This document shows, in pieces, positions 516-10,668 of a stretch of 10,963 nt of DNA. Numbering within the stretch: the stretch's first letter is position 1; every line of letters starts with the position of its first letter. The DNA comes from Synergistaceae bacterium (GTDB taxonomy: Bacteria; Synergistota; Synergistia; Synergistales; Synergistaceae), in contig JAAYEY010000267.1 in the NCBI GenBank assembly GCA_012728505.1, positions 1 to 10,963 of the forward strand, read 5' to 3'. The position numbers were made by a program, and so were the translations under genes. A model generated the notes under the pieces. It ran no database searches and was not told the origin of the DNA. It worked only from the letters and a program-made list of their open reading frames with translations.

Positions 516-665
516 TTATATTTCCTCCGACTTATCTTTGTCATTTAAATTATTTCTAAATTCTTTTACTTTACCAACTATCCAAGAAAACGACGCGGCG
601 ACCGCCACGATAGGAAGAAGGAGAATTCAGGGAGGACATCCTCCAGGGCGTTTTTGTGAATTCAT
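516..665 (-). CDS. Candidate small membrane selenoprotein, 49 codons with in-frame TGA (CxxU)
   Basis: Starting at ATG 663-665, with a GGAGG site 8 bases upstream, the frame reads MNSQKRPGGCPP, then TGA (627-629), and continues open to TAA at 516-518, directly against the hdeD ATG. Decoding TGA as selenocysteine gives 49 residues. These are a basic tail, a CPPU motif of the CxxU redox type (Cys10, Sec13), one hydrophobic helix (about 14-31, ILLLPIVAVAASFSWIVG), and a charged tail ending DKDKSEEI. The post-TGA part looks like real protein: a single-pass helix followed by a polar tail. A 6-bp hairpin with loop GGUC begins 17 bases after the TGA. Neighbouring genes use TGG for Trp and TGA as stop (buk), so general recoding is unlikely. 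Alternatives are a 12-residue leader peptide, a recent nonsense mutation, or a Cys-to-stop error. I do not recognise the family. A redox role is inferred only from CxxU. Confidence 0.6.
594..609 (-). promoter_or_regulatory. SECIS-like hairpin downstream of in-frame TGA
   Basis: On the minus strand the sequence CGTGGC-GGTC-GCCGCG forms six continuous pairs (one G-U wobble) closing a four-base loop that starts with GG. The apical loop begins 23 bases after the TGA. Bacterial SECIS elements are short hairpins inside the coding region just after UGA, with G in the first loop positions and about 16-37 bases between UGA and loop. This hairpin meets those rules and resembles the GGUCU loop of E. coli fdhF. 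It is the most GC-rich patch in an otherwise AT-rich area. Binding by SelB is inference. Confidence 0.5.
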
Positions 666-698
666 TAATAACACCTCCGACGAGATACTGTGTTCATT

Positions 699-764: not shown

Positions 765-1844
765 TCAGCGGATGTATTCACCGCTAGGATATATCTTGGG
801 CAATTCTTCTTTCTTAAGCACCCTTTCTGCTCCTTTATAAAGTGCCTCAAGCTCGTTTTCTCCCGGTATAACGACTATTGGACCGATAGATTTGATTTTT
901 TTCTCGAGCATTGAGACGAATCGGTCAGAATATGCTATTCCACCTGTAAGTATTATCGAATCCAGATCTCCGTCAAGAACTGTGGACATTTCTCCTATTC
1001 CCTTCGCAATCTGGTAAACAAATGCTTCCAGTACGATCTTTGCTTTCGGATCATGGTCAGCCATCTTGAAGACTTCTCTAATGTCGCGTGTTCCCAGGTA
1101 GCCCACCAAACCCCCACTGGAAACTAATTTTTTCCTGACTTCTATTTTCGTTAACTTGTTGTCGAAAATATAATCCACCAGTTTGTCTATAGGCAGGCCT
1201 CCTGCTCGCTCTGGAGAGAAAGGGCCGTCTGCCTGAGCTCCGACAACGTCAATTATCTTGCCATTGCGATGAGCTCCGATGGTTATTCCTGTGCCTAGGT
1301 GTGCTACAACAAACCTACAGTCTTCTAGTTTTTTCTCAAGCTTAGCGGCAACATTTCTTGCGACTGCTTTCTGATTAAGGGCATGGAGTAGGCTGGTCCT
1401 TTGGATCTCGGGTGCGCCTGAAATCCTAGCTACTTCTGTAAATTCATCTACAGAGACAGGATCGACTATATATGCTTCACAGCTGGATATTTCTGCAAAT
1501 TTTTTAGCGAGGACCGCCCCAAGGTTAGAAGCGTGATCTCCGCGGGCAGCTATTCTAAGGTAATCAATCATCTCTTTTGTAACTATATATGTACCGCTGG
1601 GTACCGGTGCCAGAAGACCTCCTCTTCCAACTACAGCATCGAAAGAGTCGTTACCGATATTTTTATCAGCGAGGGTTTTGTTGATTAGCTCAAAACGATG
1701 GTCAAGCTGGTCCATAACAGAAGTAAAAGACGAAATAACATTTTCGTCGATTGGTATGTTTTCTCTAGCGATCTCTTCTCCGTTTTCGTAAACTGCGATT
1801 TTAGTCGAAGTCGATCCTGGGTTGACAGCTAGTATCCGGTACAT
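765..1844 (-). CDS. buk: Butyrate kinase
   Basis: Butyrate kinase catalyses butyryl phosphate + ADP to butyrate + ATP in the cytoplasm, the energy-yielding last step of butyrate fermentation. The reverse reaction can activate butyrate or branched acids. The 359 residues match the usual length of about 355-360. It has the acetate/propionate/butyrate kinase ASKHA fold: N-terminal phosphate loop ILAVNPGSTSTK (about 4-15), the second loop VVAHLGTGITIGAH (about 179-192), the segment DGPFSPERAGGLP typical of Buk rather than AckA, and the adenosine motif ILTGGIAYSDRF near residue 300. The start lies 2 bases after the ptb stop, with a GGAGG site inside the last ptb codons, so the two are translationally coupled. 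Related leucine, valine and isoleucine fermenters use the same enzyme on isobutyryl or isovaleryl phosphate, so a branched substrate is possible. Confidence 0.95.
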   Translation of the reverse strand: MYRILAVNPGSTSTKIAVYENGEEIARENIPIDENVISSFTSVMDQLDHRFELINKTLADKNIGNDSFDAVVGRGGLLAPVPSGTYIVTKEMIDYLRIAARGDHASNLGAVLAKKFAEISSCEAYIVDPVSVDEFTEVARISGAPEIQRTSLLHALNQKAVARNVAAKLEKKLEDCRFVVAHLGTGITIGAHRNGKIIDVVGAQADGPFSPERAGGLPIDKLVDYIFDNKLTKIEVRKKLVSSGGLVGYLGTRDIREVFKMADHDPKAKIVLEAFVYQIAKGIGEMSTVLDGDLDSIILTGGIAYSDRFVSMLEKKIKSIGPIVVIPGENELEALYKGAERVLKKEELPKIYPSGEYIR

Positions 1845-1846
1845 AG

Positions 1847-2761
1847 CTATTTCATTCCTCCGGAAACGATACAGGCAAGAGCCATGCTTAGGAATTTTGA
1901 TTCAGCTGGGTCGGATCTTGAGACAAGAACTATTGGTACTAAAGCACCAAGCACCAGTCCAGCCATTTGAGCGTTACAGTAGTGGACGAGTGTCTTACAG
2001 TGTACGTTGCCGCATTCTATGTTTGGAACCAGGGTAAGATCTACCTTACCTGCTATTTTACTTTTGATGCCTTTATGCTCTGCAGCTTTTTGTGAAGCTA
2101 CAACGTCCATGGCCATAGGTCCTTCTACGGTGCAGGCACAAGGGAGATCATCGAACTCTCCTTTTTCCCATGCCTTAACCAGGTTTGCAGCATCGACAGT
2201 AGATGGAACATGGGGGTCTACTTTTTCGTTCGCCGCTACGCAGGCAACATTCACATGCTTGTAACCCAGAGAGCATATTGCTTCTAGCGAGTTTCTAAGG
2301 ATCTTTTTTTTCTGGTCCAAATCTGGAGCCACATTGAATCCGCTGTCTGTACAAAATGAGAGGTGATTCTCTCCCGGTATTTCCATCACAGCCAGATGGC
2401 TCAAAAGGCGACCCGTTCTAAGGCCTTTTTCTTTGTCGAGTATTGCTCTAAGGAAATCGGTGGTATTCATTAGGCCTTTCATGAGTGCGTTGCCTCTTCC
2501 ATCCCTTATAGATTGGACGGCAAGAGCTGCCGCAGAGGCCGGAGAATCTGCATGGATGATCTCGATTCTATCGGAGATGCCCGCTTTTTCCGCTTCAGGC
2601 ATTATCACATTCATGTCTCCGGTAAATATAGCATGCCCGAGCCCTCGTTCCATCGCAAGCTTTACTGCATCTATACTCTCTTTGTCTGCAGCTGCGACTA
2701 CTATCTTGCTGCCTGTCAGGCAGCCGCTGTTGTTAATTATTTCAACGAACGTTTTATACAT
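1847..2761 (-). CDS. ptb: Phosphate butyryltransferase
   Basis: This enzyme transfers the acyl group between butyryl-CoA and phosphate, giving butyryl phosphate for the adjacent butyrate kinase. The 304-residue length matches Ptb (about 300) and is shorter than most Pta proteins. Family signatures visible are ALMKGLMNTTDFLRAIL, the CTDSGFNVAPDLDQK segment after a SHLAV motif, CTVEGPMAMDVV, LVPNIECGNVHCKTLVHY and the C-terminal PIVLVSRSDPAESKFLS. The ATG has a very strong GAGGAGGTG ribosome site. It is the first gene of the minus-strand operon, followed 2 bases later by buk. Pta and Ptb share the fold, but gene length and the paired butyrate kinase decide for Ptb. Acyl specificity (butyryl or branched) cannot be read from the sequence. 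Confidence 0.93.
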   Translation of the reverse strand: MYKTFVEIINNSGCLTGSKIVVAAADKESIDAVKLAMERGLGHAIFTGDMNVIMPEAEKAGISDRIEIIHADSPASAAALAVQSIRDGRGNALMKGLMNTTDFLRAILDKEKGLRTGRLLSHLAVMEIPGENHLSFCTDSGFNVAPDLDQKKKILRNSLEAICSLGYKHVNVACVAANEKVDPHVPSTVDAANLVKAWEKGEFDDLPCACTVEGPMAMDVVASQKAAEHKGIKSKIAGKVDLTLVPNIECGNVHCKTLVHYCNAQMAGLVLGALVPIVLVSRSDPAESKFLSMALACIVSGGMK

Positions 2762-4372: not shown

Positions 4373-5068
4373 TTAAACTTCTTCAGATAATCTATTATCT
4401 AATATATGACGAAACACTATAAGAGAATTTTTAATTGCTTCATCAATGTTGCTGGTGTCGCCTGAGCAGAAAATTTCCATTATCTTTTCATGGTTATCCA
4501 TTACCGTTTTGTCCAAAACTGCATTTCCTTTTTTAGAATAGGGACGGCATAATTCCATGACTAGGATTCCCATCTTAATAATAAATTGATTTCTGGTAGC
4601 ATTAAGTATGATTTTGTGGAATTCTTGGTCTGCCACGTCGGCAGTTGGATGATGAATTTCAGAGAGGTTTTTGTATTCATGGAATCTTTGACGTATAACT
4701 AGCTTCTCATCATCTGTTGCTTTAGTTGTGGCCAATTTCAAGGCAGCTATGTCAAAAATTAGCCTGAATTCATATAATTCCTCAGCATTAGAACGCTGGA
4801 GCATCATGTCCAATAGCAATGGTCTGAAAATTTGAGGACCAAGAGATTCTCGCAAAAATGTTCCTTTACCTTGTGAAGACTCCACAACGCCTAAAACCTG
4901 AAGCATTTTGATAGCTTCTCTAATGCTTGATTTGCCGACCCCATAACGTTCTGCCAGCTCGCGTTCGGAGGGCAAGCATACTCCAGGTTTGAATTCACCA
5001 TCTCTAATCGAATTTTGAATGTTTTCAAGAACTAATTGAGATAATGTGTTTTCTCTTTTTAGTTTCAT
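4373..5068 (-). CDS. FadR-type GntR transcriptional regulator (FCD domain)
   Basis: This is a 231-residue cytoplasmic DNA-binding regulator. Residues about 7-72 form the GntR winged helix, with LVLENIQNSIRDGEFKPG, LPSERELAERYGVGKSSIREAI and the wing GVVESSQGKGTFLR. Residues about 95-225 form an all-helical FCD ligand domain. D147, H151 (DQEFH), H193 (NHEKI) and H221 match the usual metal/carboxylate-binding set. FCD regulators commonly sense carboxylates or amino acids. ATG 5068 is preferred to an in-frame TTG two codons upstream because an AGAGGT site sits 7 bases ahead of the ATG. It is divergently transcribed from the racemase-TRAP genes, so it is the likely local regulator of that operon and possibly of itself. 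The ligand is presumably proline, hydroxyproline or a relative (inference). Confidence 0.9.
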   Translation of the reverse strand: MKLKRENTLSQLVLENIQNSIRDGEFKPGVCLPSERELAERYGVGKSSIREAIKMLQVLGVVESSQGKGTFLRESLGPQIFRPLLLDMMLQRSNAEELYEFRLIFDIAALKLATTKATDDEKLVIRQRFHEYKNLSEIHHPTADVADQEFHKIILNATRNQFIIKMGILVMELCRPYSKKGNAVLDKTVMDNHEKIMEIFCSGDTSNIDEAIKNSLIVFRHILDNRLSEEV

Positions 5069-5224
5069 TTGCAAGACCTCTCATTGATTGTAAGTTTTAT
5101 TGAAAAATCATTAGGTGCTGAAGAGCAGGAAGATTTTATAGATACCTACATGTATTGTACTATAAGATTCCTCCAGCCTTGTGTTTGTCAATAAATAGAG
5201 TTGTTGTTCTTTTAAACCATGTAA

Positions 5225-5364: not shown

Positions 5365-6378
5365 ATGATGCAATTTATTAGATCTATCAACGTAGTAGAC
5401 GCTCATACGGCTGGAGAGCCGGTAAGAGTGGTTGTTTCGGGTCTTCCTAACATCCCTGGCTCAACAATGCTCGATAAAATGAGATGGTTTGATGAGAATT
5501 TAGACGGGGTAAGAAATTTCCTAATGAGAGAGCCAAGGGGTCATAAGGACATGTTTGGCACGATCCTTACTCCTCCCGTTACTGAGGATGGACATGCAGG
5601 AGTTTTATATATTCATACCACAGGACAGGCTACCATGTGCGGTCATGGTACTATTGGAGTCGTTAAAGTGCTTATCGAGACCGGAGTAGTACCCGTCATC
5701 GAAGGAGCGAACACGGTAAATATCGATGCTCCTGCCGGACGTGTAACCGCAAGAGCAATAGTAAAAAATGGTAAGGTCATAGAAGTTTCTTTTCAGAATG
5801 TTCCATCTTTCCTCTACAAGGACAACATCGAAGTCGATATCCCAACAATTGGTAAAGTAAAAGTAGCCGTCTCTTTCGGCGGAGGCTTCTATGTTTTTGT
5901 AGAAGCAGAGGATTTGGGAATTGAAGTAACTCCAGAGCATAGCGCTGCAATTGCGAAGCATTCTATGTGGCTGAAAGATTGGGGAAACAGAGAACTGAAT
6001 GTAGTCCATCCGGAAAATCCCGAGATAAAAGGGATATATGGAGTAATAGTTACCGGACCCTCTGAAAAAACTTGTAACGGCTGGAAATCTAAAGAGACAT
6101 GTGTATTCGCAGATTCTGCTATAGACCGTTCCCCTTGCGGCACAGGGACGTCTGCCAGAATGGCGCTTCTTTATGGGCGCGGGCTAATGACTCCTGAAGA
6201 AACGTTGGAAAACAACAGCATACTTGATACGACATTTTATGGATCAATTGATGGCCTTGCAGAAATTGGCGGCATTAAGGGCATAGTTCCCCGCATAGCC
6301 GGACCTGCCTGGATAACAGGTTTTAACCAGCTTGTCCTTGATCCGGAAGATCCCTTAAGCGAGGGGTTCTTAATTTAA
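5365..6378 (+). CDS. Proline racemase / 4-hydroxyproline 2-epimerase family enzyme
   Basis: This is a 337-residue cytoplasmic, cofactor-independent racemase that inverts the alpha carbon of proline or hydroxyproline using two cysteines as acid and base. Both are present: Cys92 in MCGHGTIG and Cys258 in DRSPCGTGTSA. The conserved PRGHKDMFG block (58-66) and the C-terminal PAWITGFNQLVLDPEDPL are intact. Overall it closely resembles the PrdF-type proline racemase of proline-fermenting clostridia, which supplies D-proline to proline reductase. 4-Hydroxyproline epimerases share these motifs, so substrate stays open. The first ATG is preferred over the second (next codon) because GAGGTG lies 7 bases upstream of it. 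It is first in an operon with dctPQM, divergent from gntR. No proline reductase gene is in the window. Confidence 0.88.
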   Translation: MMQFIRSINVVDAHTAGEPVRVVVSGLPNIPGSTMLDKMRWFDENLDGVRNFLMREPRGHKDMFGTILTPPVTEDGHAGVLYIHTTGQATMCGHGTIGVVKVLIETGVVPVIEGANTVNIDAPAGRVTARAIVKNGKVIEVSFQNVPSFLYKDNIEVDIPTIGKVKVAVSFGGGFYVFVEAEDLGIEVTPEHSAAIAKHSMWLKDWGNRELNVVHPENPEIKGIYGVIVTGPSEKTCNGWKSKETCVFADSAIDRSPCGTGTSARMALLYGRGLMTPEETLENNSILDTTFYGSIDGLAEIGGIKGIVPRIAGPAWITGFNQLVLDPEDPLSEGFLI

Positions 6379-9552: not shown

Positions 9553-9656
9553 ATGCTTATCCTTAATTCCAATGAGATAAGAAGGCCTTTATAATCGAAG
9601 ATGTAATAAAGTCTAGCGCAGCGGTTTTTGTTATACAAAGCAAAGGAGGATGTTGA
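9553..9656 (+). pseudogene. N-terminal remnant of an ornithine cyclodeaminase/mu-crystallin-family gene
   Basis: ATG 9553 reads MLILNSNEIRR and then meets a stop after two more codons. If one base is restored after codon 11 (CC at 9586-9587 where a full codon is expected), the frame continues FIIEDVIKSSAAVFVIQSK-GGC to TGA 9654-9656. The joined sequence matches the first 35 or so residues of the ornithine cyclodeaminase/mu-crystallin family, where an ILxxxEIRRA start leads into a helix of the form xxDVIxxxxxAFxxxSxGG. Family proteins are about 320-340 residues, so nearly all of this gene is gone. An AAGGAG site lies 12 bases before the ATG. Family members include ornithine cyclodeaminase (ornithine to proline) and delta-1-pyrroline-2-carboxylate reductases of hydroxyproline breakdown, both fitting the cluster. 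Its last codons AGC AAA GGA GGA now serve as the ribosome site of the next gene. I made the match from memory of the family pattern. Confidence 0.6.
9590..9595 (+). promoter_or_regulatory. Possible -10 box for the second racemase-like gene
   Basis: A consensus TATAAT lies inside the gene remnant, at its frameshift, and 63 bases before the next start codon. The sequence at the -35 position (TTCCAA, 17-base spacer) is poor. A promoter is expected here because a terminator stands upstream, but this match alone is weak. Confidence 0.25.
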
Positions 9657-9657
9657 A

Positions 9658-10668
9658 ATGCGTAACATACAGTCATTATTTGTAGTCGATGCTCATACCA
9701 CTGGTACTCCGATAAGAGTCATCACATCAGGAATTCCCCCCCTAAAAGGCGATACTATAGAAGATAGAATGGAATACATGAAGACCAATTATGATTGGTT
9801 AAGGACATGCTCTATGCAACAGCCAAGGGGTTTTCTTTCTTTGGTAGGGGCAGTGTTGACCGAGCCTTGTTCTTCTGATGCCGATTATGGCCTCTTTTAC
9901 ATTGATGCGCTAGGATACCAGCCTATGTGTGGCGCCGGAACTTTATCTGTCGCAAAAGTGCTTGTTGAGACAGGCATGATAAATCGCGTCGAACCGGAAA
10001 CGATAATTAGACTTGAAACACCAAGCGGAATTGTTACAGTTTTTGTCGAAATTGAAAACGGAGAAATTAAATGCATTTCACTTGAAAATGTCCCCGCTTT
10101 TTTATATCGTAGGAATCTGGAAATTAAAGTTCTCGATATTGGAGATATCAAGGTTGATATAGGATTTGGAGGAAATTTCTTTACGATCGTAGACATCGAT
10201 GCAATAAATATGGACATTTCTAAGAACAAAATGGATGAGCTACGCAAGTTAAGTAAGGTTATTCTTGCTTCTGCCAATGACGTTGTCAAAGTACAACATC
10301 CTATTAATAAATCTATAAATTATATGGATCAATTGCTTTTCGTGAAGAATAAACCGGACGAAAACGGCGAATATTTATGTCAGTGTATTTTTGGAGACGC
10401 ACAGGCAGACATATCTCCCTGTGGGACCGGAACGTCCACAAGACTTGCCCAGCGCTACTTCAGAGGACTAATTGGCATAGACGGGACGTTTTCGCAGAAA
10501 AGTATATATGGAGGAGTATTTAAAGCTTCAATTGTGCGTGAGGTTGATTTGAACGGCACAAAAGCAATTGTTCCTCGCGTGTCGTGCAGTGATGTACATA
10601 TTACTGGGTTTAATCATCTTATTGTGGAAGAAGATGATAAACTTAAAAATGGTTTTGTAACTTGGTAG
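9658..10668 (+). CDS. Divergent proline racemase-family protein
   Basis: This 336-residue member of the proline racemase superfamily aligns end to end with the racemase at 5365-6378. Both catalytic cysteines are kept: Cys91 in PMCGAGTLS and Cys255 in DISPCGTGTST. Two normally conserved positions differ. The MCGHG histidine is Ala93, and PRGHxDMFG has become PRGFLSLVG, so a second histidine is lost. The DRSPCG arginine is also Ile252. The two cysteines argue for a racemase or epimerase rather than a trans-3-hydroxyproline dehydratase, which lacks one. The changed pocket suggests another substrate. ATG 9658 is chosen because AAAGGAGG lies just ahead. A TTG ten codons upstream is in frame but lies inside the gene remnant. 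It is followed 14 bases later by a serine dehydratase-type gene. Exact activity is unknown. Confidence 0.82.
   Translation: MRNIQSLFVVDAHTTGTPIRVITSGIPPLKGDTIEDRMEYMKTNYDWLRTCSMQQPRGFLSLVGAVLTEPCSSDADYGLFYIDALGYQPMCGAGTLSVAKVLVETGMINRVEPETIIRLETPSGIVTVFVEIENGEIKCISLENVPAFLYRRNLEIKVLDIGDIKVDIGFGGNFFTIVDIDAINMDISKNKMDELRKLSKVILASANDVVKVQHPINKSINYMDQLLFVKNKPDENGEYLCQCIFGDAQADISPCGTGTSTRLAQRYFRGLIGIDGTFSQKSIYGGVFKASIVREVDLNGTKAIVPRVSCSDVHITGFNHLIVEEDDKLKNGFVTW

Follow-up and report, generated by a model that had tools for sequence, protein, structure and literature searches.

Can a frame of 49 codons that is interrupted by a TGA at its thirteenth codon be a gene, and is that TGA read as selenocysteine (Sec)? 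The question is raised by a small locus in a 10,963-nt stretch of a Synergistaceae contig (the window, i.e., the whole stretch of DNA analysed here), for which a preliminary description, made from the letters alone, had proposed a small selenoprotein with a CPPU motif, coupled to an HdeD-family protein. The frame lies on the minus strand, a point not given in that description, and its reading agrees with the elements on which the proposal was built (Table 1): the ATG follows a GGAGG at 8-base spacing and opens a 49-codon frame, a single TGA stands at codon 13 within a CxxU motif (GGCPP-U), and the 36 codons after it are open up to a TAA that touches the ATG of hdeD (at 515; gap 0). Read with U, the window protein is MNSQKRPGGCPPU ILLLPIVAVAASFSWIVGKVKEFRNNLNDKDKSEEI. 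Ordinary gene calling would miss the family because, under the standard code, each member has only 10 to 16 codons before it stops at the UGA, lengths that depend on the chosen start codons. Elsewhere in the window, two proline racemase-family genes (5365-6378 and 9628-10668, plus strand) flank the genes of a TRAP transporter (DctP, DctQ, and DctM); a gene for a GntR/FCD regulator (4373-5074, minus strand) adjoins the racemase and TRAP genes, and the start of a serine dehydratase beta-chain gene comes after them.

Table 1. Features of the predicted selenoprotein locus and its neighbours, in window coordinates.
Feature	Position	Strand	Basis and remarks
Predicted CPPU micro-selenoprotein gene	516..665	-	Frame reading of the window, 665 to 516, 49 codons plus TAA; codon 13 is TGA, predicted to be read as Sec; homologues with TGA there in 23 genomes, including the window's own
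Start codon ATG of the CPPU gene	665-663	-	Frame reading
In-frame TGA (predicted Sec), codon 13, completing GGCPP-U	627..629	-	Kept in 23/23 homologues
Stop TAA of the CPPU gene	518-516	-	Frame reading
Bacterial SECIS-type hairpin	594..609	-	6-bp stem, GGUC loop; loop starts 23 nt past the TGA
Predicted membrane helix ILLLPIVAVAASFSWIV, coding region	576..626	-	Hydropathy 2.45 over 17 residues; AlphaFold2 helix 13-48
Shine-Dalgarno GGAGG	674..678	-	8-nt spacer to the ATG of the CPPU gene
hdeD-like gene (DUF308), truncated by the contig end	3..515	-	PF03729, 67.5 bits vs. a cut-off of 25; next gene, same direction
Butyrate kinase gene	765..1844	-	TIGR02707, 454.5 bits vs. a cut-off of 289.1; upstream of the CPPU gene, same direction
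Phosphate butyryltransferase-like gene	1847..2761	-	PRK05805, 284.5 bits, under its cut-off of 399; upstream, same direction

The frame and its hairpin are raised above a chance occurrence by their conservation: both the TGA and the open frame recur in 23 genomes, and the hairpin in the 22 sequences aligned. In a first search of 100 relatives, 41 genomes matched at E <= 1, from which 13 clear homologues (E < 1e-7, the window's own included) were kept and the weak rest was dropped. A profile search of the phylum (185 genomes, with at most 38 candidates scored per genome) matched 26 genomes at E <= 0.01, of which 22 were kept (G121, G025, G049, and G022 were dropped), and a wider profile search (389 genomes, at most 18 candidates scored per genome) matched 25, of which 23 were kept. 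The two remaining matches were discarded as chance, that in G178 after its sequence had been read and found to hold no such motif, and that in G258 from its result row alone. The Sec codon is TGA in every one of the 23 homologues kept. Thirteen of the carriers belong to the window's own family, the Synergistaceae (f1), nine to a second family (f3), and one to a third (f6). All eight genomes of the genus are among the f1 carriers, the remaining five being from elsewhere in the family, and the TGA has the same place in every one of the 13. The f3 and f6 proteins, of about 34 to 39 residues, are shorter than these and consist of GF(A/V)CPPU or GFCPPU, a hydrophobic stretch, and a stop just past it.

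A form with Cys at the Sec position was not encountered in these genomes. The sole such form (CPPC) in a search of 5.8 billion predicted proteins is P0003 (E = 2.9e-4), which has 55 residues, ends in RRGGFACPPCLLVWLGAAVVALLGWLARRFF, is 36 to 54% identical to the nine f3/f6 members of alignment A4, and derives from a single metagenome contig of 946 nt. A further protein search gave no second Cys homologue beside P0003; the protein searches also returned one fragment of 33 residues, identical to part of L019. A scan of genome contigs, using patterns of the hdeD-linked type only, yielded six loci, five in Synergistaceae and one in Akkermansiaceae; the latter was judged to be a chance match upon reading. 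In a scan of viral contigs no member of the family was found.

The codons beyond the TGA evolve as a protein-coding sequence would. Within the genus (seven sequences, G007 being omitted as equal to G002 here), codons +1 to +20 after the TGA have a pN/pS of 0.29 (0.84 and 2.85 when the frame is shifted), with 60, 24, and 112 differences at the successive codon positions. The own family has a pN/pS of 0.42 after the TGA, the two shifted frames giving 0.95 and 2.36; that of the other lineages (f3/f6) is 0.52. In alignment A1, R6, G8, C10, P11, P12, the Sec position, P18, A21, and W28 are invariant. Judged from these substitution patterns, the frame downstream of the TGA is under protein-level selection. 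This bears directly on the alternative that the locus encodes a 12-codon leader peptide that stalls the ribosome at CPP-UGA and regulates hdeD, the remaining frame being untranslated. Ribosomes are known to stall at a proline before a stop, as in TnaC, and both the invariant Pro-Pro before the UGA and the start of the window's hdeD directly after the frame would suit such a leader. However, the frame past the UGA is conserved as protein (including P18, A21, and W28), the Cys homologue P0003 reads through, ten carrier genomes have no HdeD match at E <= 1e-5, and the hairpin fits the spacing and loop rules of SECIS elements (see below), so that we regard a leader peptide as very improbable.

A SECIS-like hairpin with a loop starting in GG, 23 bases past the TGA, had also been proposed for this locus, and is confirmed as a structure whose stem covaries across 22 sequences. 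In the window it reads CGUGGC-GGUC-GCCGCG and has an energy of -9.6 kcal/mol when folded alone; its GGUC loop resembles the loop of E. coli fdhF. According to the legend of Figure 2 in PMC13188914, bacterial SECIS elements have a loop of 3-9 nt with a G within its first two positions, a stem of 4-16 bp, a spacing of 16-37 nt, and an energy <= -7.5 kcal/mol. The window hairpin fits every one of these rules (4-nt loop, 6 bp, 23 nt, -9.6 kcal/mol), while not all relatives fit each of them (e.g., L093 with -4.0 and L095 with -5.8 kcal/mol; 22-nt fold). As a lone fold it is unexceptional (z -1.88, with 11 of 200 shuffles as good), three longer stretches have z values of -0.80 to -1.58, and Rfam gave no match up to E = 5 for the window gene. 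The single folds of GrdA at 30 loci of the same bacteria had, by eye, no form in common with the CPPU hairpin, and an automatic filter gave 0 out of 30; this comparison was taken to weigh neither for nor against the hairpin.

The evidence for the hairpin comes from its comparison among relatives. The alignment, anchored at the TGA, includes 22 of the 23 sequences (G007, equal to G002 here, was omitted) and needs no gaps. The hairpin occupies identical columns in all 22, with the loop starting 23 nt past the TGA, and all six pairs are formed in 18 of them; RNAalifold recovers the same six pairs. In the stem, 97.0% of the cells are paired, a value reached by 0 of 500 shuffles (90.0%); slid controls have 18.2 to 77.3% of their cells paired. 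Compensatory change on both sides is seen in three of the six stem pairs. The outermost pair is CG in 16 sequences, UA in three, AU in one, GC in one, and unpaired in one; in total, four of the 132 stem cells are unpaired (L095, L104, L107, and L108). The loops of five f3 members lack a U (GGGC or AGGC). Because related sequences inflate such shuffles, a synonymous-codon null was drawn, in which each protein was redrawn with local codon usage (2000 draws). Under this null, 101.2 of the 132 pairs are expected (sd 3.1; maximum of all draws 114) vs. 128 observed. With one sequence per genus, 30 out of 30 pairs are formed both in five f1 genera (23.7 expected) and in five f3/f6 genera (23.9 expected), a number reached by 0 of 2000 draws in either case. 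For single sequences, the p values by pair count range from 0.07 to 0.63 and none is significant, the strength of the test being the sum over 22 related sequences. By energy, they range from under 0.002 to 0.65, with L104 no better than the null and eight other sequences at p >= 0.07. Taken over the alignment, the pairing and the codon null indicate that the hairpin is under RNA-level selection.

The genes for decoding such a codon that were sought are present in the genome from which the window derives. Its selA and selB genes adjoin, a tRNA-Sec scores 76 bits vs. a cut-off of 47, and there is a partial GrdA match with an in-frame TGA. Across the phylum, selB was detected in 21 out of 23 carriers vs. 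107 out of 162 other Synergistota (Fisher p = 0.009) and, when genomes are limited to those of >= 90% completeness and <= 5% contamination, in 14 out of 14 carriers vs. 79 out of 101 others (p = 0.04). selB gave no match in two carriers, G005 (65% complete) and G015 (66%), the latter of which has a GrdA that contains a TGA. It could be argued that the UGA is passed by leaky readthrough, or read as an amino acid other than Sec, and member L020, which uses TGA as its frame end too, lends some support to this. Against it stand the genome's selA, selB, and tRNA-Sec genes and its GrdA with an in-frame TGA, the position of the UGA as the last of CxxU, where the sole non-TGA relative has Cys, and the RNA-level selection on the hairpin, which together leave this alternative hardly any probability. 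The preliminary description had named findings that would speak against a selenoprotein: a genome without selB or selC, random codons or stops at position 13 in homologues next to hdeD, and no conservation beyond the TGA. What was found is a genome with selA, selB, and tRNA-Sec, the TGA in 13 out of 13 homologues next to hdeD, and, past the TGA, a pN/pS of 0.29 with three residues invariant in A1.

On these comparisons, we consider it almost certain that the gene at 516..665 encodes a selenoprotein, selenium incorporation being a prediction from sequence. The full explanation, a 49-residue CPPU selenoprotein whose UGA is decoded via SelB, tRNA-Sec, and the hairpin, appears highly probable. In this explanation SelB and tRNA-Sec, together with the hairpin 23 nt further on, would make the ribosome insert selenocysteine at the UGA of codon 13. 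The product would have a short, basic N-terminal part that closes with CPPU, followed by a single membrane helix that starts at the selenocysteine and by a charged tail. A membrane helix after the TGA had been expected, and it is supported both by the hydropathy, which peaks at 2.45 over ILLLPIVAVAASFSWIV, with both flanks of the helix basic, and by the AlphaFold2 model, a single helix of residues 13 to 48 that starts at the Sec (modelled as Cys; modest confidence, with a mean pLDDT of 71.6 and a pTM of 0.31). In thioredoxin-fold proteins, CxxC sits at a helix N-cap. The CPPU would similarly be located at the helix N-cap, at the membrane surface, and may act as a selenol/thiol redox or metalloid-binding group; we regard the chances of such a redox or metalloid role as about evenly balanced.

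With which system the protein works would depend on the lineage. In Synergistaceae, it would serve the adjoining HdeD-like membrane protein. The coupling to HdeD that had been claimed is indeed seen throughout the window's own family, where hdeD lies directly downstream in 13 out of 13 carriers (gap 0 to 21 nt), but it does not extend to the ten carriers of the two other families (f3/f6), in which no HdeD match was obtained at E <= 1e-5. Because of these ten, HdeD is regarded as a local partner and not as a defining one. Conversely, a close hdeD (E < 1e-50) without a selenoprotein match is present in ten genomes of the own family (thirteen when E <= 1e-5 is allowed), and no CPPC or CPPU frame was found in the 150 to 210 nt upstream of hdeD, one copy being inspected in each of those ten. 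The window's HdeD copy, which is cut by the contig end, scores 80.4 bits, under the NF007577 equivalog cut-off of 189. A C-terminal Cys, a candidate partner residue, is present in 12 of the 12 linked HdeD copies whose C-terminus is complete (that of the window is truncated, and L011 and L012 are identical) vs. 7 of the 10 unlinked copies that were inspected (p = 0.08). In the own family, the HdeD-like proteins (L160-L173) often end in GRGCS, with the Cys at the membrane edge; this ending is found in 6 of the 10 unlinked copies, and the seventh unlinked copy with Cys has GCD.

The genes upstream of the selenoprotein gene are also partly shared. The order phosphate butyryltransferase, butyrate kinase, selenoprotein, hdeD is found in G000 to G004, i.e., the five of the eight genus members examined for gene order (G005 to G007 lie outside this count), and in G016. 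G020 keeps butyrate kinase upstream, and G011, G015, and G029 have other upstream genes. The selenoprotein could be a dedicated subunit of an HdeD membrane module for acid stress that is supplied by the butyrate kinase operon, as this gene order and the constant position of hdeD in the own family would suggest. Such a module is, however, difficult to reconcile with the ten carriers of other families without an HdeD match and with the ten own-family genomes that have a close hdeD and no selenoprotein match, and we consider it unlikely. A direct partnership of the selenoprotein with HdeD we regard as doubtful.

In the other lineages, the CPPU protein would serve other systems, e.g., arsenite methyltransferase clusters. 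A match to arsenite methyltransferase (NF008823) lies at <1 kb on the same strand in six out of nine f3 carriers (G105, G116, G117, G118, G119, and, as a partial match, G173), the L107 copy scoring 269.9 bits vs. a cut-off of 263; none lies within 1 kb in f3 carriers G099, G113, and G120. Also identified nearby are an ArsR-type regulator (L106 copy) and pieces of an ArsP_1-like permease (L111 copies, just under the Pfam cut-off). In eight out of nine f3 members, a TATAAT or CAAT runs into the palindrome AC(C/T)CC(C/T)AGGGGG, or a form shorter by one base, before the start, and this palindrome (L103-L110) overlaps the promoter and the ribosome site. We take it to resemble the operators of the CsoR family; a CsoR-family gene is found in 10 out of 10 f3/f6 carriers vs. 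0 out of 13 f1 carriers. When sought with one mismatch in 185 genomes as the mark of a possible regulon, the palindrome ATACCCCNAGGGGGTGA occurs at 24 places, seven before a CPPU gene and 17 elsewhere, the latter exceeding the two places of a backward-read control. The seven are one each in seven of the eight f3 carriers having the palindrome, the shorter form of G120 missing the pattern, and three of the other 17 lie in the own-family carriers G002, G004, and G007.

These surroundings, i.e., the arsenite methyltransferases, the ArsR-type regulator and ArsP_1-like pieces, and the palindrome together with the CsoR-family genes, would fit a selenoprotein with a role at the membrane in the binding or reduction of arsenic and similar metalloids. 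Yet none of the five own-family carriers searched with NF008823 has a match at E <= 1e-20, nor do G065 and G120, and the palindrome is a putative regulator site, with similar ones at 17 other places in the phylum, so that a specific metalloid function seems rather improbable. As a separate observation, the arsenite methyltransferase matches L210, L211, and L213 (in G121, G113, and G112) contain an internal TGA, and that of G113 also a TAG; Sec-containing ArsM is an already known kind (PMC13188914, Table 1).

We tentatively propose that this Synergistota family of 34 to 49 residues represents a thioredoxin-like site cut to one helix, in which a CPPU-capped membrane helix, nearly always carrying Sec and very rarely Cys, would act as an exchangeable selenol subunit, with HdeD-like partners in one lineage and arsenite methylation clusters in another; we give this proposal slightly less than an even chance. 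If confirmed, the protein would be among the smallest selenoproteins, without a known redox fold, and would suggest that a CxxU site needs no more than a membrane helix to carry it, and the family would be a direct test of the role of Sec vs. Cys at such a site. To our knowledge, the biochemistry of HdeD-like proteins is poorly known, and the CPPU protein would, if confirmed, offer a partner for them.

The suggestion that the family is undescribed agrees with the databases and catalogues searched, Rfam (see above) included. With E values of up to 1, the window protein has no match among the models of NCBIfam 20.0, Pfam gave no match for it, the thioredoxin domain included, and ten A4 members had two chance matches only in NCBIfam (E 0.23 and 1.6). 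Table 1 of PMC13188914 gathers, by its own count, 119 selenoprotein families and subfamilies, and in the part available no entry was recognised as the CPPU family. Nor was such a family seen in the accessible portions of PMC9312934 and of PMC12013277, the test genomes of the latter including two Synergistota for which no new family is given. As stated in PMC12013277, the deep-Sep method may misidentify selenoproteins without Cys homologues; the CPPU family has almost no Cys relatives. When the literature was searched for HdeD together with selenocysteine, or for CPPU together with selenoproteins, only unrelated work was found, and the titles among the matches listed for Synergistota selenoproteins contained none, RefSeq records and other journals being beyond the scope of that search.

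Several known systems share features with the CPPU protein. Human SELENOK and SELENOS are small single-helix membrane selenoproteins; their Sec is near the C-terminus, whereas that of the CPPU protein stands before the helix, and no homology is claimed. The KCU-star / DUF466 (YbdD-type) selenoproteins are small. This family (NF033934) is likewise a bacterial selenoprotein, but its motif is CU and not CPPU (PMC13188914, Table 1), and NCBIfam gave no match. The CC/Se motif family NF041239, a CxxU selenoprotein of unassigned function, has the CxxU in common with the CPPU family (PMC13188914, Table 1). It differs in that NCBIfam links the window protein to no model up to E = 1 and the A4 members by chance only. 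The HdeD / DUF308 domain (PF03729) belongs to the downstream neighbour and not to the selenoprotein. With thioredoxin-fold CxxU/CxxC proteins, finally, the CPPU protein shares a CxxU at the start of a helix, as seen in the AlphaFold2 model, but it has no Pfam match and consists of one helix, predicted to lie in the membrane.
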